From IMG/VR virus record IMGVR_UViG_3300036859_000082, positions 1 to 31,962 of that record: a DNA stretch of 31,962 bases; one strand, written 5' to 3'. The notes under the pieces are model-generated. The model saw nothing but the letters and a program-made list of their open reading frames with translations, ran no database searches and was not told where the DNA came from. Below are positions 10,343 to 29,904 of the stretch, piece by piece; positions within the stretch are counted from its first letter, which is position 1; every line of letters starts with the position of its first letter. This stretch comes from a virus. The position numbers and the translations under genes are program-made.

Positions 10343-11563
10343 GTGAAATTGAATCTCGGGAGTGGGGGAGAAGTCGAGGGGTATGTCTCGATTGACCGCA
10401 AGCAAGGCAAGGAAGCATACCCACTCGATTATCCCGACAACTCGGTTAATGAAGTTCGGGCCAGTCACATACTGGAACACTTCAACCGGGGCGAAGTAGA
10501 AAAGGTTTTGAAGGACTGGGTACGGGTACTAAAGCCCGGTGGATGTTTGAAAATTGCTGTACCGGATTTTGACTGGATCATTGATAACCGCAAAGATCCA
10601 AAGATCCAAGGCTACCTGTTTGGTGGACAGATTGATGAGAACGACTTTCACCGGGTAGCGTTCGACGCAGACTTACTTGAACGTCTTCTCAGGTCAGCAG
10701 GGTTAATAGATATAGGGCCGTGGACAGATGAAATTGATGATTGTTCACGATTACCCGTAAGCCTTAATCGGCTGGGGTATAAACCTTCTAATTCGTTTGG
10801 CCTCGACGAGAAGTTGGAACGAGTAAAGGACGACGAGCAGATCAAGATCGTTGGGGTTATGAGTTGTCCGAGGCTGGGGTGGACAGACACGTTTGGATCA
10901 ATCACGTCAGCCTTCATGCCGCTGGGGATTGAAGTCTTTCGTCACTCAGGAGTGTTTTGGGGGCAGGGATTAACCAGACTGATGGAAACGGCCCTGAAGA
11001 AGGGAGCGGACTACATCATCACCATTGACTACGATTCAGTATTTGAACGAAAGCATATTCACAGAATGTGCCAACTGGCGATCGAGAATGATGATGTTGA
11101 CGTGATAGTTCCGGTTCAGGTCAGGCGTGAGAATGACTATTCGATGTTCACCATGCGCGACGGAAACGGCGATCTAAGAACGAGGGTTGCACAAACTGAA
11201 TTCAGGAAACCGTTAACGAAGATCACTACCGGACACTTTGGCTTGACGCTAATTAAGTCGAGTTCATTGAAAAGGCTTTCTAAGCCCTGGTTTTTAGCCA
11301 TACCCGACAAGAGCGGGGAGTGGAACGAGGGCCACGTGGATGAGGACATTTACTTCTGGCACAACTGCGAACGATCAGGTCTGAACGTGCAGATGGCGAA
11401 TGAGGTAAGGATCGGGCACTTACAAAACATGATCGCATGGCCCGATCAGAGTTTTGCCCCCACTCATCAGTACGTTGGCGAGTACAACGAGAAGGGCCAG
11501 CCCAAAGATGCGGGTGGAGATTTAGAGGTTGAAGTAAAAGAAGATGAAATTAAAACTAATTAA
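10343..11563 (+). CDS. Methyltransferase-glycosyltransferase fusion
   Basis: Residues 1-125 form a class I SAM-dependent methyltransferase: KLNLGSGGEVEGYVSID (glycine loop), HILEHF and LKPGGCLKIAVPDFD are the standard motifs. Residues ~167-365 are a GT-A type glycosyltransferase: VGVMSCPRLGWTDTFG, the metal/donor motif DYDS (229-232), TGHFGLTL, KPWFLAIPD and an acidic HVDEDIYFW segment that fits the catalytic-base region. A close copy of the GT half is at 26528, and the same two domains occur in reverse order at 17543. GTG 10343 has AAGGAG 9 nt upstream. Probable role: add a sugar and methylate it; target unknown. Confidence 0.8.
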   Translation: MKLNLGSGGEVEGYVSIDRKQGKEAYPLDYPDNSVNEVRASHILEHFNRGEVEKVLKDWVRVLKPGGCLKIAVPDFDWIIDNRKDPKIQGYLFGGQIDENDFHRVAFDADLLERLLRSAGLIDIGPWTDEIDDCSRLPVSLNRLGYKPSNSFGLDEKLERVKDDEQIKIVGVMSCPRLGWTDTFGSITSAFMPLGIEVFRHSGVFWGQGLTRLMETALKKGADYIITIDYDSVFERKHIHRMCQLAIENDDVDVIVPVQVRRENDYSMFTMRDGNGDLRTRVAQTEFRKPLTKITTGHFGLTLIKSSSLKRLSKPWFLAIPDKSGEWNEGHVDEDIYFWHNCERSGLNVQMANEVRIGHLQNMIAWPDQSFAPTHQYVGEYNEKGQPKDAGGDLEVEVKEDEIKTN

Positions 11564-17542: not shown

Positions 17543-20026
17543 ATGTCAGAAAACATTCCAGCCTTAAAGCCCGGTTATCACCCTATGCGAACGGGACTGC
17601 TAACCGGAATCCCCCTGAGCGGTAGACCGCTGCATCCCCAATTCACATTTAGTTACGCAGCTCTCCATCCACCCATGTGCTACAACATGAACGTCATGAC
17701 GGTGTGGATGAAGCCTGTCGACGTAGCGCGAAATGAAATAGCGGAAAAAGCAGTAGAAATGGGCGCGCGTTTTATTTTCTTTATTGACGAAGATGTAACT
17801 CCACCCGGTCACGCATTAAGACAATTGATTTACCAAGCCGAGCATCATCCTGAGGGAGCAATATTCGGCGGGATCTACTGTCATAAATCTCCTCCAGCTA
17901 TGCCAATGATATTCAAGAATGGGTTGGGCGCGGGGCCGTATTGGGATTGGAAGGTTGGAGAGTTTTTTGAAGTTGATGGCATTAGCATGGGATGCACGCT
18001 CGTGAGAGTCGATGCACTTGCGAGTATTCCTAAACCTTGGTTCAAGTGCTACTCAGCCGACACAGAGGTTTTAACAAAACGTGGCTGGCTGGCATGGCCG
18101 GACGTGAAAGACAGTGATGAGTTTGCCACCAGAAATGTGGACGGCTGGCTTGAGTGGCAATTTGCTTCTAGTCTGACGAATCTGCCTCACAACGGCGAGA
18201 TGGTATCTTTCAAAGGTGAGGCTTCGGATCTCTTAGTCACTGAGAATCACCGTATGTATGGGTTTGAATGGAAATACGATTGCACAAAAAGGGAGGGCCA
18301 TAAGGGGCCACTACAATTCATTGCGGCCAAAGATGTAGCGTCCCGTTTCTCAAAACGTGGACCAGGACAACGAGGATTCAGAGTGCCAAGCACCGTCAGT
18401 TGGCTCGGCACTTTACCGCCTGAGGGGGATATCTTTCAACTGACATCTGTCTTTGACGGACCGGGACCAAAGCCAATTAAAAGATCCATTGACCTCTCCG
18501 ACTGGGTAGCGTTTTTAGGTTTGTACCTCGCCGAAGGTTCTTGTGAGGGCACATTCAAGCAATATGGAATTACGAAGAACGCCGTTGATGATCCTCGCTC
18601 GCATTATGAGCAGGCGATGGCATTTGTTGCTTCCGGTATGCCTGCCAACTATCCGTCACATCCGTCTACAAATAGAAGCAACGCGACGAGGGTGGCCATT
18701 ACCCAAGCTGCCAAGAGTCGGTATTACGCAGAAATAAATAGTCTTCTCGAAAAGCTTCCTTGGCGATTTAGGCCGACCGTCCATGGCTTTGTAGTCAACG
18801 ACAAAGGACTGCACCATGAACTATTTCGGCTAGGCAATAAATACATCAAGCACGTGCCCCAATGGGTCAAGGATCTCCCGGCTTCTTATCTGGAGATCTT
18901 TCTGACTTGGTTTAACAAAGGGGATGGCTCGATTCGCAAAAATGGCGACAGGGTTTACTTCACAACTAGCAAGCAGCTCGCAGATGATTTACAGGAAATC
19001 ATCTTGAAGATCGGACGGTCAGCCACCATCAGGAAGTACGCAGGCCGAGCAGCAACTGTAGGGGATCGTGTTATAGATAAATCTCGGACGGCAGCGGGTT
19101 ATTTTCTTTATGAGCGTAAAGCTAATTATGTAACGCTCGGTTCTGCCTCGACCGAAAACTATGAAGGTCGAGTCTATTGCGCTACCGTGCCGAATGAAGT
19201 GCTATACGTGCGACGTAACGGGAAACCAATGTGGTGCGGGAACACCGTAGATGATGCCTCTGCCTATTGGGATGGTGTTCCTAAAGCAGAAATGTGGACA
19301 GAAGATCTATGGCTATGCGATCGTGCAATTAAAGCAGGGTGGAAAGTCTATGCCGATGCCTCAGTGTTATGTGAGCATTGGTCCATCGAAACAATGAGTC
19401 CTACGGTCTTACCTCCTGACTGTTTGCCTCGACGCAGGGCAGGATGGACCAAAGGAACGAAGAAGATTGTTGATCTTGGCTGTGGCGAGAACCCTTACAC
19501 GACTGATGAGGGCGATGTCCTAACGGTTGATATTCGAGAGAATGTGAACCCTGACTATCGTTGTGACCTGAGAAAACTTCCTTTTGCGACCGGAGAATTT
19601 AATATTGTCTACTCCAGTCATGTGCTCGAACATTTCCCGCGTAATGCTGTCCCCGAGATCCTTGATGAGTGGATTCGAATACTGAAGGACGACGGCGAGT
19701 TTCGGTTGATAGTGCCTAATATTGAATGGGCCGCAAAGGAGATCGTAAAAGGCACGATCAATAACGATGTGATGAACGTTCTATATGGTGCGCAGAGCTA
19801 TGGCGAGAATTTTCATCAAATGGGTTTCACTCCTAAGGTGCTCACGGAGATGCTGACGGAGCGCGGATTCAAACGCATTGACGTGGAATTGATGCACTAC
19901 AATCTATGTATGAGGGCATGGCGCAAGGTCCCTAAGAACGCTCCCAAACCACTAGGCGAGATAGTGCAGGCAAAAAAGAATGGACACAAGAAAACTAAGC
20001 AACCAGTAATGAAACGAGGTAAGTAA
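17543..20026 (+). CDS. Glycosyltransferase-methyltransferase fusion interrupted by an intein
   Basis: The precursor has 827 residues. Residues 1-168 plus ~568-615 form a GT-A glycosyltransferase with FFIDEDVTPPG (donor/metal motif Asp82-Asp84), ISMGCTLVRVDAL, KPWF and then MWTEDLWLCDRA. Residues 169-567 are an intein. Residues ~638-785 are a class I methyltransferase: KIVDLGCGENP, HVLEHFPR, ILKDDGEFRLIVPN. Splicing would give a mature protein of about 428 residues. The end is very basic (KKNGHKKTKQ). AAGGAG lies 4 nt upstream of ATG. Domain order is the reverse of the protein at 10343. It probably transfers and methylates a sugar on a virion or cell-surface acceptor. Confidence 0.85.
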   Translation: MSENIPALKPGYHPMRTGLLTGIPLSGRPLHPQFTFSYAALHPPMCYNMNVMTVWMKPVDVARNEIAEKAVEMGARFIFFIDEDVTPPGHALRQLIYQAEHHPEGAIFGGIYCHKSPPAMPMIFKNGLGAGPYWDWKVGEFFEVDGISMGCTLVRVDALASIPKPWFKCYSADTEVLTKRGWLAWPDVKDSDEFATRNVDGWLEWQFASSLTNLPHNGEMVSFKGEASDLLVTENHRMYGFEWKYDCTKREGHKGPLQFIAAKDVASRFSKRGPGQRGFRVPSTVSWLGTLPPEGDIFQLTSVFDGPGPKPIKRSIDLSDWVAFLGLYLAEGSCEGTFKQYGITKNAVDDPRSHYEQAMAFVASGMPANYPSHPSTNRSNATRVAITQAAKSRYYAEINSLLEKLPWRFRPTVHGFVVNDKGLHHELFRLGNKYIKHVPQWVKDLPASYLEIFLTWFNKGDGSIRKNGDRVYFTTSKQLADDLQEIILKIGRSATIRKYAGRAATVGDRVIDKSRTAAGYFLYERKANYVTLGSASTENYEGRVYCATVPNEVLYVRRNGKPMWCGNTVDDASAYWDGVPKAEMWTEDLWLCDRAIKAGWKVYADASVLCEHWSIETMSPTVLPPDCLPRRRAGWTKGTKKIVDLGCGENPYTTDEGDVLTVDIRENVNPDYRCDLRKLPFATGEFNIVYSSHVLEHFPRNAVPEILDEWIRILKDDGEFRLIVPNIEWAAKEIVKGTINNDVMNVLYGAQSYGENFHQMGFTPKVLTEMLTERGFKRIDVELMHYNLCMRAWRKVPKNAPKPLGEIVQAKKNGHKKTKQPVMKRGK
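18047..19243 (+). mobile_element. Intein with LAGLIDADG homing endonuclease
   Basis: 399 codons inserted in frame. The first residue is Cys169 in block A (CYSADTEVLTKRGW), block B is LLVTENHRM (Thr233, His236), LAGLIDADG-type helices are AFLGLYLAEGS (323-333, Glu331) and IFLTWFNKGDGS (452-463, Asp461), and the C-terminal blocks read RVYCATVPNEVLYVRRNGK then PMWCGN, ending at Asn567 with Thr568 as first residue of the next extein. The usual penultimate His is Gly here, seen in some other inteins. All splicing residues (Cys1, TxxH, Asn, +1 Thr) are present, so it is probably active. Confidence 0.88.
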
Positions 20027-20053
20027 ACGAATAGGCGAGTAATTCTCAAAGGG

Positions 20054-20314
20054 TTGATATCTCTCCCGCTTGCCTATTTGTTCGCTCGCACGATTGTTCA
20101 AATGTCCGCTTTCATCACTCCACAACGAGCAGGAGTAGCGGCGGCATTTATTTTGATTGATCCTAACGGTCTGATAGCCAGCGCATTAAGCGTTACTGAT
20201 GATATCGGGAAAGCTGAAGCGCAGTTTATAATCAAGAGACGCGCACCACGAGGGGAGTACAAAGGTAGAGTTACGGTGCAGACAGTATTTGATGAGGCGA
20301 CGGTGTTGGTATGA
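20054..20314 (+). CDS. Ig-like small beta-sandwich protein, paralogue 2
   Basis: The core AAFILIDPNGLIASALSVTD, GKAEAQFIIK, then PRGEYKGRVTVQT matches the Ig-like protein at 17288 in strand order and spacing. The start is unclear: TTG 20054 gives a hydrophobic leader, whereas ATG 20102 (MSAFITPQ) gives a 70-residue protein that aligns better with its paralogue. No good ribosome site is seen for either. It follows the glycosyltransferase-intein gene. Confidence 0.5.
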   Translation: MISLPLAYLFARTIVQMSAFITPQRAGVAAAFILIDPNGLIASALSVTDDIGKAEAQFIIKRRAPRGEYKGRVTVQTVFDEATVLV

Positions 20315-24088: not shown

Positions 24089-24850
24089 ATGGCAATTGCG
24101 GTTAGGACGAAAGATCCAGCAGCCAAGCTGGACTATCAATTCGACTGGAATGACTGGCTTGTTGGTGACACCATTGCCAGTTCGTCTTGGGTGGTGCCTG
24201 CCGGACTCACCAACGTCAACGATTCTTTTACCGCACAAACTACAACCATCAGGCTTTCAGGTGGTACGCACGGGGTTAACTATGAGTGCGTAAATCACAT
24301 TATTACGGCATCGGGTCAGGAAGATGATCGCTCGATTACGATCCATGTTCGCCAGAAAGAGGCCGGGGCAAGTGCGGACGCGACTGCCCGCGCGACTGCA
24401 ATGACTACTCTGTACGAGTGGGCGCAGATCAATGTTGCCCCGGTATTGGAAGAAGCGGAACTTGAGACAATTCTGGATCGCAATCAAAGAGCCTCCACTT
24501 GGACGACTGTAACCGCTTATTTTCCCGGCGATGTAGTGATTCCAACCCTCCCGAATGGTCGAAGGTATATCTGTCGAATTGGGGGAACCAGCGGAACCTC
24601 CGATCCCTTCTCTGGACAAACGTGGCAATCCTCCCGCTCGACTGTGATTACAGATGACGGCGTAACGTGGCAGGAAGACGGTCCTGCCTATCCAAACATT
24701 TACGATCTCAGACAGTCGGCTTATGAATGCTGGGATTTAAGGGTGAGACGCGCAGCGCAGTTTGTGAAGACCGGAGAGATTGAAATGCAGCAGGTTCATG
24801 ATCACTCTGTGGCAATGCGTGACAATTTCACGCCAATGGGGTTTGCATGA
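24089..24850 (+). CDS. Head-tail connector / fibre-adaptor-like protein
   Basis: 253 residues in two parts. Residues 1-95 (KDPAAKLDYQFDWNDWLVGDT, split as KDPAAKLDYQF / DWNDWLVGDT, then SSSWVVPAGL, IRLSGG, DDRSITIHV) match the small beta domain found in phage fibre-tail adaptor proteins. Residues 110-253 are helical at the ends with DLRQSAYECWDLRVRRAAQF and a closing DNFTPMGFA, the style of neck/connector proteins. It opens the connector block and overlaps the next gene by ATGA. Confidence 0.65.
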   Translation: MAIAVRTKDPAAKLDYQFDWNDWLVGDTIASSSWVVPAGLTNVNDSFTAQTTTIRLSGGTHGVNYECVNHIITASGQEDDRSITIHVRQKEAGASADATARATAMTTLYEWAQINVAPVLEEAELETILDRNQRASTWTTVTAYFPGDVVIPTLPNGRRYICRIGGTSGTSDPFSGQTWQSSRSTVITDDGVTWQEDGPAYPNIYDLRQSAYECWDLRVRRAAQFVKTGEIEMQQVHDHSVAMRDNFTPMGFA

Positions 24851-25251
24851 ATACCGCGATGTTTGAGGCTATGGGTTCCGCACTCGGTGTAATGGCCGAA
24901 GCCTCATTCCCTGATGTCGTAACATTCCGGCGACCAATTACAACTAAGGACGCGGCGGGGGGAAACATTCTCGATGCGACGGGAAATCCAACCAGCCCTC
25001 AGAACGTGCCATGTTTAGTACGCCCTGCAAATGGGAAAGAGATTCAGTTAGCAGGCAAAACAGTTTCAGGATCAGTGTGTGCACTATTGATTCCTAATGC
25101 TTTTGATGAGCAGTTAGTTGATGTCGATGGCACATGTTTAGCGCAGGTTGCCGCCCGAGCGGGGGGCGAAGAAGGCCGCGCATATCAGATTCACTATATC
25201 GATCGCTCTTATGGTGTGTACATAAAAGTGATTGGGTCGATTGAGGAATAG
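24847..25251 (+). CDS. Head-tail joining (closure) protein
   Basis: 134 residues, starting in the stop of the previous gene. The pattern FPDVVTFRRPITTKDAAGGN, VPCLVRPANGKEIQLAG, then YQIHYIDRSYGVYIKVIG resembles head-tail adaptor barrels that close the portal channel and carry the tail. Location between connector and neck protein agrees. Moderate sequence cues only. Confidence 0.55.
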   Translation: MNTAMFEAMGSALGVMAEASFPDVVTFRRPITTKDAAGGNILDATGNPTSPQNVPCLVRPANGKEIQLAGKTVSGSVCALLIPNAFDEQLVDVDGTCLAQVAARAGGEEGRAYQIHYIDRSYGVYIKVIGSIEE

Positions 25252-25326
25252 CCGGAAAGGGTTCGGAAGGCATCCGGCTAGGAGGGGCCACCGCAGGTGT
25301 TGAGTGGCTCCTTCCCTGCGGGAGCC
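25251..25326 (+). repeat. Cluster of nested and competing inverted repeats
   Basis: GCCGGA (25251-25256) pairs with TCCGGC (25273-25278). CCGCAGG (25291-25297) pairs perfectly with CCTGCGG (25315-25321). GGCTCC (25306-25311) pairs with GGAGCC (25321-25326). The last two stems share base 25321 and interleave, so only one can form at a time. It lies just before the phosphatase gene. No T tract follows, so it is not a classical terminator; an RNA switch or recombination scar are options. Confidence 0.55.
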
Positions 25327-25342
25327 CTGTTTGGAGAATGAA

Positions 25343-25699
25343 ATGAAAGTTGTCTGTATGTGTCAGGGCGGTAATAGTCGCAGCGTGGCTTGCGGTTATC
25401 TGCTGAAATACAAATACGGTATTGACACCTTAGCTTGTGGGTGGGAAGGCAACAGACCTGAAACCTGTCAAATGCTTTTTGCTTGGGCTGATTTAATAGT
25501 CGTTATGCAGGAGGCGTTTTTAGAGCATGTACCAAAGAAATTCCGTAAGAAAGTGCTGGTCATAGATGTTGGTCCAGATGTTTGGTGCAACAGTCTGCAT
25601 CCAGAACTGCTGGCCAAGATAGATGAACTACTCACGCCACACATGACAATAGTTAGCAGTGATACATATCAAGGAGAACTACAATCGGCGTCCGTTTAA
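25343..25699 (+). CDS. Low-molecular-weight tyrosine-phosphatase-like protein
   Basis: The start is ATG 25343, with GGAG 6 nt upstream, rather than GTG 25304. The 118 residues open with MKVVCMCQGGNSRSVA: strand, then the phosphatase loop C-x5-R (Cys7 to Arg13), as in LMW protein tyrosine phosphatases and related small phosphatases. LFAWADLIVVMQEAF and the acidic IDVGPDVW (Asp75, Asp79; a candidate general acid) support this fold. Presence amid neck genes is unusual; a cargo gene that alters host phosphorylation or sugar-phosphate metabolism is possible. The 3' end overlaps the neck gene. Confidence 0.72.
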   Translation: MKVVCMCQGGNSRSVACGYLLKYKYGIDTLACGWEGNRPETCQMLFAWADLIVVMQEAFLEHVPKKFRKKVLVIDVGPDVWCNSLHPELLAKIDELLTPHMTIVSSDTYQGELQSASV

Positions 25700-26103
25700 T
25701 CGACAACACACAGAAGATTAAGCAAGCCATCCACGTCCAGTCGGCCCAAGGGATAAATAACGCCTGCCAGTATTGGGTAAGTGAAGCGCAGGACTTAGCA
25801 CCCGTCGACACCGGATTCCTCAAGTCAGCAATTGGGCAGACCGTTACTGCTACGCCGAACAGTCTTCATGGGGAGATTCGATCTCTGGCTCCTTACAGCG
25901 GCCCGGTTAATTACGGAACCAGTAAGCAGCAACCACAACCGTTTTGGACTGTGGCTGGATTATTAACGCGGCAGAAATTTAATGATCTCTTAAAGTCAGG
26001 GTTCATTTCTATTGGCCGCGTCGGGTCAGCGGGGCGGGGAATTATCAAAGCAGCCTTAACCGAGTTTCATGGTGTAACCGGAAGAAAGGGGCAGGGCTTT
26101 TGA
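25684..26103 (+). CDS. Neck / head-tail completion protein with apparent AUC start
   Basis: This frame is easily missed because it has no ATG, GTG or TTG near the start. It is open from 25663 to TGA 26101. AAGGAG (25671-25676) sits 7 nt before ATC 25684, the likely start; ATA 25666 lies upstream of the ribosome site. The 139 residues include NACQYWVSEAQDLAPVDTGFL followed by KSAIGQTV, and APYSGPVNYGTSKQQPQPFW, the classic pattern of HK97 gp10-type neck proteins. Downstream, the stop overlaps the next start (TTGA). Confidence 0.78.
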   Translation: MGVRLIDNTQKIKQAIHVQSAQGINNACQYWVSEAQDLAPVDTGFLKSAIGQTVTATPNSLHGEIRSLAPYSGPVNYGTSKQQPQPFWTVAGLLTRQKFNDLLKSGFISIGRVGSAGRGIIKAALTEFHGVTGRKGQGF

Positions 26104-26540
26104 GCGTAGCGATTGAGACAGCCTTAATGACTATCCTCACCGCCGATACCGTTTCAGGCGGAGTTAATCATAGCGTGACGGGAGCAACGGGAGGCTTTCA
26201 TCAGTTAATCGCACCGCAGACCGCCACCCTGCCGCGTATTGAATTCCACGAACTCTTGACTACTGCTCTTTATTCCTTTCGATCTCTACAAGCGGATCAT
26301 GTCTTCTATCAGATCAAAGCATTGGCTACAGATACGCCGATAGGCGCGGGTACTACTATCGCGGGAAACTTAAGTGAGCGAGCTAGGGCATTATTAACGG
26401 ACAACAGTTCGATGGGTTTGTATTGTCGCTTTGAGCGTTCAATACCTCCGTATGCGGAGTTCAGCACAGTCGGATCAGGCGGGCGTGATGGGAGGTATAT
26501 CTATCACAAGGGATTCATCTGTGAACTATGGGTGGCGTGA
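26100..26540 (+). CDS. Tail terminator / tail completion-like protein
   Basis: TTG start overlapping the neck-protein stop. The 146 residues have an N-terminal helix (AIETALMTILTAD) and a beta body (LPRIEFHELLTT, HVFYQIKALATD, RARALLTDNSS) typical of DUF3168-like tail completion proteins that cap the tail tube. Order (neck, then tail completion, then tail tube) matches siphoviruses. The glycosyltransferase that follows overlaps its 3' end. Confidence 0.65.
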   Translation: MSVAIETALMTILTADTVSGGVNHSVTGATGGFHQLIAPQTATLPRIEFHELLTTALYSFRSLQADHVFYQIKALATDTPIGAGTTIAGNLSERARALLTDNSSMGLYCRFERSIPPYAEFSTVGSGGRDGRYIYHKGFICELWVA

Positions 26541-27295
26541 CGTTACCTAAAGAGATAGTTGACGAATGGCGGCGCGCAGCCTTTCGTCCTGAAGAATCCA
26601 TAAGACCTGTTCCACCAAGGCGGGAAGGCTCTTTGAAAATCGTGGCTCTGATGAGTTGTCCAAGACTTGTTTGGTCAGACACCTTTGGGTGTGTGAATGA
26701 GACCTTTCTTCCTTTAGGGATTCCGGTGGTCAGACATTCAAGTGTTTTCTGGGGGCAGGGGCTCACCCGATTACTGGAAGAGGCTGTCAGCCTGGAAATG
26801 GATTATGCAATCACCGTCGACTATGACTCGGTATTCTCAAAAGAAGATGTTGTCAGACTCATAAAGTTGATGCACGACTCGAATGCTGACGCAATTGTTC
26901 CGGTTCAAGTCAGACGTGAAAGTAACTCGTCAATGTTCACCATGAGAGATGATCAAGGGAAACTTTTACACGTGGTTGACCGGAGTGAGTTTGAAAAGGA
27001 TCTAACCCCAATTGCAACAGGTCATTTTGGGTTGACGATTTTACGAGTGACATCTTTCAAGCGATTAGCTAAACCCTGGTTTCTTGCTATCCCTGATGAA
27101 GACGGACAATGGCGGGCAGGGCATATTGATGAAGACATTTATTTTTGGCTGAACGCGGAACTAGCAAAGTGGAAAGTTTATCTGGCAAACGAAGTGAGAA
27201 TCGGACATTTGCAGAATGTAGTGAGCTGGCCGCGCGCAGACTTTACGCCACAGTTTCAGTATGTAAACGACTTTACGCAGAAGGGTAAACCATGA
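26528..27295 (+). CDS. Stand-alone GT-A glycosyltransferase, paralogue of 10343 C-terminal half
   Basis: 255 residues, from residue ~36 closely similar to the GT domain at 10343: ALMSCPRLVWSDTFGC, SSVFWGQGLTRLLEE, VDYDSVF (Asp98-Asp100), VPVQVRRESNSSMFTMRDD, TGHFGLTI, KPWFLAIPDEDGQW, HIDEDIYFW and NEVRIGHLQNVVSWP. The methyltransferase half is absent. ATG 26528 or GTG 26537 (GTGA overlap with the previous stop) could start it. It ends in ATGA with the tail-tube gene, so it is expressed together with tail genes. The acceptor may be a tail protein; unproven. Confidence 0.82.
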   Translation: MGGVTLPKEIVDEWRRAAFRPEESIRPVPPRREGSLKIVALMSCPRLVWSDTFGCVNETFLPLGIPVVRHSSVFWGQGLTRLLEEAVSLEMDYAITVDYDSVFSKEDVVRLIKLMHDSNADAIVPVQVRRESNSSMFTMRDDQGKLLHVVDRSEFEKDLTPIATGHFGLTILRVTSFKRLAKPWFLAIPDEDGQWRAGHIDEDIYFWLNAELAKWKVYLANEVRIGHLQNVVSWPRADFTPQFQYVNDFTQKGKP

Positions 27296-28020
27296 GTTTC
27301 GTAACCGGAGTTACACTTAAAGTTTTGGTTAACCAGTACGAGATGTCGGGATACTTCAACTCGCTGGGGATTAACTGCGAGCGAAGCATGTATGACACTA
27401 CAGTGTTCGGAAACACTTCGAAGAATGTTATTCCGGGTTTCAAGGGTGGCTCGATTGATATTGGCGGGTTCTATGAGGAAGTAGCTACTGCGTCTGCCCC
27501 TGAGAATGTATTCACTGCCATCGAGGCGAGCGCTACCGTTCCCATAGTTTCCATCTTCCCTGAAGGCTGGGCCTTAGGCTCCAGAGCCTATCTACTCCAA
27601 GCCCACAAGAACAATCATAAACTCTCTGCTGTCGTTGATGACCTGGTAAAGATGGACGCCACGTTTACCGACAATGATGGTTACGACTTTGGGGTTTCCT
27701 TACATGGTCTAACCGCAGAGACTTCCTTACCATTCACAGGAACAGCGGTAGACAACTTAGCTTTAACCAGTAACGGGGGAGTAGCGTTTCTGCACGTCTC
27801 AGCAATTGCAGGGGCTTCGCCGAATGTAGTGATTAAAGTTCAACACGCCGCCGTCTCAACGTATGCGGATCTGGTGACATTCACCGCAACTACGGCAGCA
27901 AGTTCTCAGCGGGTAGTAGTGGCTGCGGCAACAACCGTGAATAGAAATTTGAGAGTAACCATGACCGAGGGTGGAACGACTTCCTCGATCACCGCCAGCG
28001 TTTCATTTGCAAGAAGATAA
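27292..28020 (+). CDS. Major tail tube protein with extra C-terminal beta domain
   Basis: 242 residues. The N-terminal ~150 read like a siphovirus tail-tube protein: EMSGYFNSLGINCERSMYD, TTVFGNTSKNVIPGF, KGGSIDIGGFYEE. From about residue 150 a second Ala/Thr/Val-rich beta domain follows (GGVAFLHVSAIAG, VVIKVQHAA, RNLRVTMTEGG), as found decorating tail tubes. It overlaps the glycosyltransferase by ATGA and precedes a second tube-like gene. Confidence 0.78.
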   Translation: MSFVTGVTLKVLVNQYEMSGYFNSLGINCERSMYDTTVFGNTSKNVIPGFKGGSIDIGGFYEEVATASAPENVFTAIEASATVPIVSIFPEGWALGSRAYLLQAHKNNHKLSAVVDDLVKMDATFTDNDGYDFGVSLHGLTAETSLPFTGTAVDNLALTSNGGVAFLHVSAIAGASPNVVIKVQHAAVSTYADLVTFTATTAASSQRVVVAAATTVNRNLRVTMTEGGTTSSITASVSFARR

Positions 28021-28032
28021 GGAGATAACAAA

Positions 28033-28449
28033 GTGGCAGTCGTAACTGGCAGGACAATGCACCTTGCGGTAGATAACTCATCAGGTTCCCTGATCAATTT
28101 ATCTACTTACTCAAACTCGGTTGATTTTGGATTTCCGGTAGACATGCTGGATACGACAACCTTTGGATCAACCTCAAAAGCCTTCATGCCGGGGTTCGAC
28201 GGCGGGGATGATATAACGATCAACTTTCGGTATGACCCTGTGCCAGAATTACAACTTGCTTCGATCAGTCCCTTAACAACAAGTTCTACCGTTCAGATCT
28301 CGCCAGAGGGAACTACTACTGGAAACCGCAAGTTCGTGATGGAGACTTTCTTAATGAATTACAGAGTCTCTGCCAGCCCCGAAAACATCGACGAGATTGT
28401 AGCGACCTTTCGGAAGACTGGGGCCGTTACGCGAACAACGTGGGCATAG
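28033..28449 (+). CDS. Second tail tube-like protein
   Basis: GTG 28033 with AAGGAG 8 nt upstream. The 138 residues repeat the key elements of the tube protein upstream: STYSNSVDFGFPVDMLD, TTTFGSTSKAFMPGFDG, DITINFRYDP. It is shorter, lacking the extra C-terminal domain. Two tube paralogues in a row could build mixed tubes or divide tube and initiator or terminator roles. The end overlaps the reverse-strand HNH gene by 23 bases. Confidence 0.7.
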   Translation: MAVVTGRTMHLAVDNSSGSLINLSTYSNSVDFGFPVDMLDTTTFGSTSKAFMPGFDGGDDITINFRYDPVPELQLASISPLTTSSTVQISPEGTTTGNRKFVMETFLMNYRVSASPENIDEIVATFRKTGAVTRTTWA

Positions 28450-29245: not shown

Positions 29246-29671
29246 ATGGATTTATCCGCACTGCTCGACGTGACTGAGCCCGTTGAGTGTGAATTCTTGG
29301 ATCATAAAATCACCGCGCACGTTTTCACCGCTGGCATTAACCGACTGCGCAAAGAAGATCGCGATAAGTATTCGGAACTATCAGAAGGCGGAGATCCTGA
29401 TCCGATTCTGCTAGCTCGTGCTTTGCTGCCCGTAATGATTGGCGGTTGGGATCTGGATGGAACTCCAATGGAGTATGCGGGCCGTCCTTTTCCTCCGTCC
29501 GTTGAAAACGTGGCGCAATGTCCCGATGCGTTGTTACAAGTGGTAGCAAATCCGGTTATTGATAAATGGAGTAAGGCAAACCCTACAACTGGCGATCTTT
29601 CGCAGAATGGCTCGGAACCCCTGCCGGAGTCCCAGTCGGAAGAGAGCCTGACCCAGACCACTACTGCTTAG
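29246..29671 (+). CDS. Tail assembly chaperone, short form (gpG-like)
   Basis: 141 residues, acidic, with a folded N-terminal part (EPVECEFLDHKITAHVF, LARALLPVMIGGWDLDG, DALLQVVANPVIDKWSK) and a disordered Ser/Gln/Thr tail. In siphoviruses such a chaperone is encoded just before the tape measure and a minority of ribosomes shift -1 to make a longer product. Here the slippery site is at 29578. The chaperone coats the tape measure during tail assembly. Confidence 0.75.
   Translation: MDLSALLDVTEPVECEFLDHKITAHVFTAGINRLRKEDRDKYSELSEGGDPDPILLARALLPVMIGGWDLDGTPMEYAGRPFPPSVENVAQCPDALLQVVANPVIDKWSKANPTTGDLSQNGSEPLPESQSEESLTQTTTA
29578..29584 (+). promoter_or_regulatory. -1 programmed frameshift slippery site A_AAC_CCT
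   Basis: The heptamer fits X_XXY_YYZ in the chaperone frame (codons GCA AAC CCT at residues 111-113). The -1 frame is closed by TAA at 29572-29574 just upstream and is then open through to 29904, exactly as needed. A slip gives a product of about 219 residues. Confidence 0.75.
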
Positions 29672-29904
29672 AACAAGTCCATCTAGCGGCCCACGCGATG
29701 AATGCTGACGGTTTTGAATTGATCGCCGCAGTTGAGCAAGGGGACACAGATATGATTCGCAAGATTGATCGGGCAGCGTTTTTTGCGCGGACAAGAAAGC
29801 GAGCTGAGCTAGTTGCTTTCAGAAGTGAGTTAGCGACCAAAGATATAACCGCAGAAGCATTAAGTGTTCATTTACTCTCAAGACTTGTAGATAACTTATC
29901 GTAA
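29584..29904 (+). CDS. Tail assembly chaperone, -1 frame extension (gpT-like)
   Basis: The extension reads YNWRSFAEWLGTPAGVP, REPDPDHYCLEQVHLAAH, then AMNADGFELIAAVEQGD and a helical end. ATG 29698 within it is only an internal Met; continuity upstream and the slippery site argue that it is made as a fusion with the first 113 residues of the chaperone. It ends at TAA 29902, overlapping the tape measure ATG. Confidence 0.7.
   Translation, partial: YNWRSFAEWLGTPAGVPVGREPDPDHYCLEQVHLAAHAMNADGFELIAAVEQGDTDMIRKIDRAAFFARTRKRAELVAFRSELATKDITAEALSVHLLSRLVDNLS

Follow-up and report, generated by a model that had tools for sequence, protein, structure and literature searches.

A tail completion protein gene with an apparent AUC start codon in a siphovirus-like phage

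Described non-standard starts and tail completion proteins

Among bacterial genes with non-standard start codons, infC begins with ATT in E. coli and with ATC in Streptomyces, and sigR begins with GTC; the accessible text of PMC5472188 describes both as limited by IF3. In S. aureus such starts occur at infC (AUA), cvfC1 (AUU) and ccpN (AUA), all with a strong Shine-Dalgarno sequence, and AUU and AUA starts in S. aureus reporters gave ~10% of AUG output, with ccpN reaching up to 30% in rich medium (PMC13009471, available sections). For 61,358 ancestral AUG starts, the available part of PMC5622118 gives a single switch to AUU, with AUC absent from its list; AUG-to-AUN switches are very rare there. 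An earlier, sequence-only reading of the locus described below had called AUC or AUA starts very rare. In a reconstituted system, weak third-base pairs led to very low yields (PMC10158994, accessible portion). Among the papers listed by searches of an open-licence library, none evidently describes an AUC start in a structural gene of a phage; subscription journals lie mostly outside that scope and may hold one.

The 80alpha tail completion protein (TCP) was fitted inside the neck as a monomer that caps the DNA end and touches three tape-measure chains (PMC11661146, accessible portion). We analysed a gene for a protein of this family in the window, by which we mean the whole 31,962-base stretch of viral DNA (Table 1). 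Its product matches phrog_5, 'tail completion or Neck1 protein', with an E-value of 9.4e-13, and PF04883 with 26.9 bits, above the cut-off of 21.4. The score against the NCBI equivalog TIGR01725 is 25.2 bits, under the cut-off of 30.8, so we do not give the product the name of the HK97 equivalog. The AlphaFold2 model, for which the alignment held 41 sequences (the window's and those of 40 of the distinct homologues), has a mean pLDDT of 79.5 and a pTM of 0.67, and the helix, loop with β hairpin, helix fold is present in it. The best PDB match of the model is the SaPI1/80alpha neck chain 9mu2_P (probability 1.00, E 0.018, TM 0.56/0.70), and the next match has a probability of only 0.33. Family, profile and fold together narrow the 'neck protein' of the sequence-only reading to a TCP of the HK97 gp10 / SPP1 gp16.1 / 80alpha gp51 type, which it resembles in sequence family, predicted fold and place 5' of the major tail protein. 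Unlike those genes, the window gene apparently starts at ATC rather than at ATG, GTG or TTG and has a phosphatase-like gene directly 5' of it; its protein also has a longer C-terminal tail than many homologues.

Table 1. Coordinates of the tail completion gene, its start region and neighbouring genes in the window
Feature	Positions	Strand	Remarks
Gene in stopper / head-completion position	24847..25251	+	position; weak PF05521 match (E 0.19), below cut-off
Upstream gene, phosphatase-like	25343..25699	+	CX5R motif; overlaps tail completion gene by 16 bases
Predicted mRNA hairpin with Shine-Dalgarno in interior loops	25650..25681	+	81-nt fold
In-frame TGA	25660..25662	+	caps 5' extension at 7 codons
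Shine-Dalgarno AAGGAG	25671..25676	+	computed duplex with 16S rRNA tail −8.5 kcal/mol
Tail completion protein (Neck1 / HK97 gp10-like)	25684..26103	+	139 codons, apparent ATC start
Apparent AUC initiation codon	25684..25686	+	7 nt behind AAGGAG; aligned between nearest relatives' starts; same in L002
Predicted mRNA hairpin just 3' of start	25694..25723	+	fold prediction
Second, less likely ATC candidate	25699..25701	+	one-base overlap with upstream TAA 25697–25699
Gene in tail-terminator position	26100..26540	+	position only; no family match; TTG start overlaps TGA 26101–26103
Major tail protein	27292..28020	+	phrog_9522, E 2.5e-43

Compared with the order stopper, TCP, terminator and major tail protein, the region has two extra genes inserted; here the major tail protein is assigned by a match, the stopper by a weak one and the terminator by position. 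The phosphatase-like gene lies after the stopper position and before the tail completion gene. Its product, which we take to be phosphatase-like from the CX5R motif, has no match in Pfam, NCBIfam, PHROGs, PDB, phages or plasmids. Two glycosyltransferase-like genes (10343–11563 and 26528–27295) are found inside the structural region. A long ORF at 17543–20026 has a glycosyltransferase-like start and a methyltransferase end, and a LAGLIDADG_3 match within it (PF14528, E 1.5e-5, residues 459–500) suggests an intein within the first domain. No tRNA genes are present in the 31,962-base window.

The start region of the tail completion gene

The neck frame is open on the + strand from 25663, just 3' of a TGA, to the TGA at 26101–26103. 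Its product has 139 residues when counted from ATC 25684, and the sequence-only reading was correct in its coordinates and length and in placing AAGGAG exactly 7 nt 5' of the ATC. The codons that begin at 25663 to 25690 are TAC ATA TCA AGG AGA ACT ACA ATC GGC GTC. From codon −7 on, the first in-frame ATG, GTG or TTG is GTG 25951, at codon 90, which bears out the earlier observation that there is no usual start near the beginning of the frame. In any frame, the first such codon after the Shine-Dalgarno sequence is TTG 25773, leaving 96 nt without one. The sole AUG-like codon, one base off, that is rightly spaced behind the Shine-Dalgarno sequence is ATC 25684. Three other codons were rejected as starts: ATA 25666 lies 5' of the Shine-Dalgarno sequence, AGG 25672 falls inside it, and with GTG 25951 the HK97-gp10 domain would be lost. 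The coordinates also yield the gap of ~400 bases that had been foreseen for gene callers limited to ATG, GTG and TTG, between the upstream stop at 25699 and the next start, TTG 26100.

By its computed duplex, the Shine-Dalgarno sequence ranks with the window's stronger sites. The + strand has only 13 copies of AAGGAG, and of the 12 others at least four sit 4–9 nt 5' of a start. At the gene at 10343, AAGGAG is followed by ACAATCGG; the 8-mer is found three times against 1.1 expected. We regard this likeness to the tail completion start as chance, since three occurrences are reached in 13 of 100 shuffles and the ATC is out of frame there.

The 81-nt fold at the start has a z of −2.78, with equal stability in 2 of 200 shuffles, and this z is the second lowest of the 34 starts folded, one of the 33 others (20054) being lower. 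The predicted hairpins around ATC 25684 are suggestive only. The one that holds the Shine-Dalgarno sequence could mask it, a point against the AUC start; ribosomes ending the overlapping upstream gene (stop 25697–25699) would probably help by opening this local hairpin. The lower-scoring start at 20054 is that of a TTG ORF, and the region 20015–20095 is the most stable relative to shuffles among the 34 starts (z −4.4).

The overlap of the two genes also bears on whether the neck protein is instead joined to the upstream phosphatase-like protein by a −1 frameshift, an outcome that the sequence-only reading had named as speaking against its own. The overlapping frames do stand in a −1 relation, and the Shine-Dalgarno-like AAGGAG lies inside the overlap. 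Against this, there is no X XXY YYZ slippery heptamer between 25655 and 25705, and the annotated phage records examined give the homologue a gene and a start of its own; we consider such a fusion exceedingly improbable, and the overlap, having no slippery site, gives it no support. Elsewhere in the window, the ORFs at 29246–29671 and 29575–29904 overlap in a −1 relation 5' of the likely tape measure gene. AAACCCT at 29578 is in slippery register, and 29246–29904 resembles a tail assembly chaperone frameshift.

N-termini of homologues and a second contig

We found 104 loci with a tblastn match to the tail completion protein, of which 72 distinct homologues were kept after leaving out three on the contig of L002, one with its 5' end cut and 28 duplicate proteins. 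The 72 include L018, where the match lies on the strand opposite to its record's annotated genes and may be spurious. All 72 have a usual start between −25 and +12 of the matching position, and the starts chosen with a simple Shine-Dalgarno rule are ATG in 58, GTG in 11 and TTG in three. Because a range from −25 to +12 is weak evidence alone, controls with 16-codon windows were run on 77 distinct homologous open frames. Counted in codons from the one aligned with ATC 25684, a usual start lies between −12 and +3 in 76 of the 77, the lone exception (L065) having an ATG at −13, while four equally wide control stretches downstream contain one in 44, 57, 38 and 35 of the 77 frames. The sequence-only reading had proposed an alignment with gp10-type proteins; the homologues place the N-terminus in the region of ATC 25684.

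The nearest relatives, which have an (F/L)x-D-N-(S/T) motif in common, start at −2 (L039), −1 (L014, L049, L085 and L086) or +3 (L013, L041 and L046) and so bracket ATC 25684. Their N-termini read MAKGWKFEDNS at −1, VAKGGFQFEDNS at −2 and MKFIDNS at +3, and across their start range the window has the codons AGA ACT ACA ATC GGC GTC. The range of N-termini in relatives, the one-base difference from ATG and the spacing behind the Shine-Dalgarno sequence together make ATC 25684 the likely start. Apart from L002, no homologue among those examined is without a usual start nearby; homologues appear to use ATG, GTG or TTG, and the non-standard start is therefore no rule for the family.

The same N-termini weigh on a second ATC, at 25699, where ribosomes might reinitiate after terminating at the upstream TAA. 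Stop/start overlaps of the TAATG type are a common arrangement, and ATC 25699 shares one base with the TAA at 25697–25699. It is, however, 22 nt from the Shine-Dalgarno sequence, is a non-standard codon too, and would drop GVRL from the product. No chosen start falls between +4 and +11 in the 72 distinct relatives, and the lone later choice (+12, in L106) could also begin earlier, at −9 or −5. Termination-reinitiation at ATC 25699 is thus very unlikely.

The ATC at 25684 is identical in a second contig, IMGVR_UViG_3300036861_000281 (L002; 4,267 bases), which matches the window without a difference across 24827–26406. Over 24412–24826 the two differ at 40 positions (~10% divergence), and further differences are found from 26407 on. 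As the identical block is flanked by divergent sequence, the ATC base has been assembled in two different genomes; as the block is wholly identical, this support is not fully independent and carries no dN/dS signal. The identity of the block is probably due to recombination. Across 24412–28445 as a whole, the two sequences form a mosaic, with long stretches of identity interrupted by ~10% divergent blocks, as recombination of related phages would leave, and the L002 copy of the gene at 26528–27295 has a short DNA likeness (50 of 62 bases) to the window's 10343–11563. A pattern scan of the viral collection with the start codon left free found the contig of L002 alone, and viral-contig scans with single proteins gave L002 as the one useful relative; L003 was set aside, its major tail protein match covering just 31 residues. 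A blastn search of window 24500–28400 against phages gave no match.

The second contig bears on the two readings in which the ATC is not a working start. In the chief remaining rival, a sequence or assembly error, the true codon at 25684 is ATG, and either its third base was read wrongly or the assembly took up a minority variant. The window comes from a metagenome-style collection of virus records, and natural AUC starts may be no more frequent than errors of assembly. L002, however, has the same base within a block flanked by ~10% divergent sequence, and the rest of the frame is undamaged and free of indels, so that we judge an error unlikely. A gene left unexpressed by loss of its start, as in a decaying or defective variant, is highly improbable. 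A non-standard start in a gene whose product is essential in the phages studied (PMC11099176, available excerpt) would fit such a loss, but the 139-codon frame and the Shine-Dalgarno sequence are intact and the block is common to two different genomes.

Initiation, dosage and meaning

The AUC start is well supported by the position of the N-terminus in homologues, the Shine-Dalgarno spacing, the absence of a usual start and of a slippery site, and the second contig. Frame 25684–26103 is most likely a genuine AUC-initiated gene of the infC / sigR kind, and we think it likely that ribosomes begin this tail completion gene of a siphovirus-like phage at AUC 25684, guided there by the AAGGAG 7 nt 5' of it. 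The initiator fMet-tRNA would pair with AUC at the first two bases, and if it initiates there the product would begin with (f)Met, as M-GVRLIDNTQKIK. We infer actual initiation at this codon, coupling to the upstream gene and a yield that would lie below the AUG level.

In having an AUN start behind a Shine-Dalgarno sequence, the window gene resembles infC (AUU, AUC or AUA), which in the known cases is repressed by IF3 according to the accessible text of PMC5472188 and PMC13009471, as well as cvfC1 (AUU) and ccpN (AUA) of S. aureus, where the Shine-Dalgarno sequence is strong. It resembles sigR (GTC) of Streptomyces in that a non-standard start is proposed where the usual start rules fail. There are also differences: infC is an autoregulated host gene, whereas the window gene is a phage virion gene that is not known to belong to a regulatory loop and whose start is not common to its homologues. 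The sigR start, which has a role in stoichiometry, was proven by N-terminal sequencing and mutation, and the cvfC1 and ccpN starts are conserved and were mapped by initiation profiling, whereas the window start is a candidate read from the sequence and is common to L002 only.

Lowered expression from the AUC start is plausible, by analogy, because the 80alpha homologue was modelled at one copy per virion (PMC11661146, accessible portion), and a small output could be acceptable, or even be favoured, if the window protein likewise sits in the neck as a single copy. The available excerpt of PMC11099176 calls TCPs essential, and a very weak start would therefore be risky. A more specific and rather doubtful proposal is that the AUC is a selected dosage brake, which would set the output of a one-copy protein below that of its operon neighbours through a start under the control of host IF3 and a hairpin opened only by upstream translation.

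If the AUC start is true, a virion structural gene would be added to the few AUN-started genes listed for bacteria and phages, and gene callers limited to ATG, GTG and TTG could lose a morphogenesis gene of an essential family. It would also offer a simple test of whether start-codon strength follows virion copy number.
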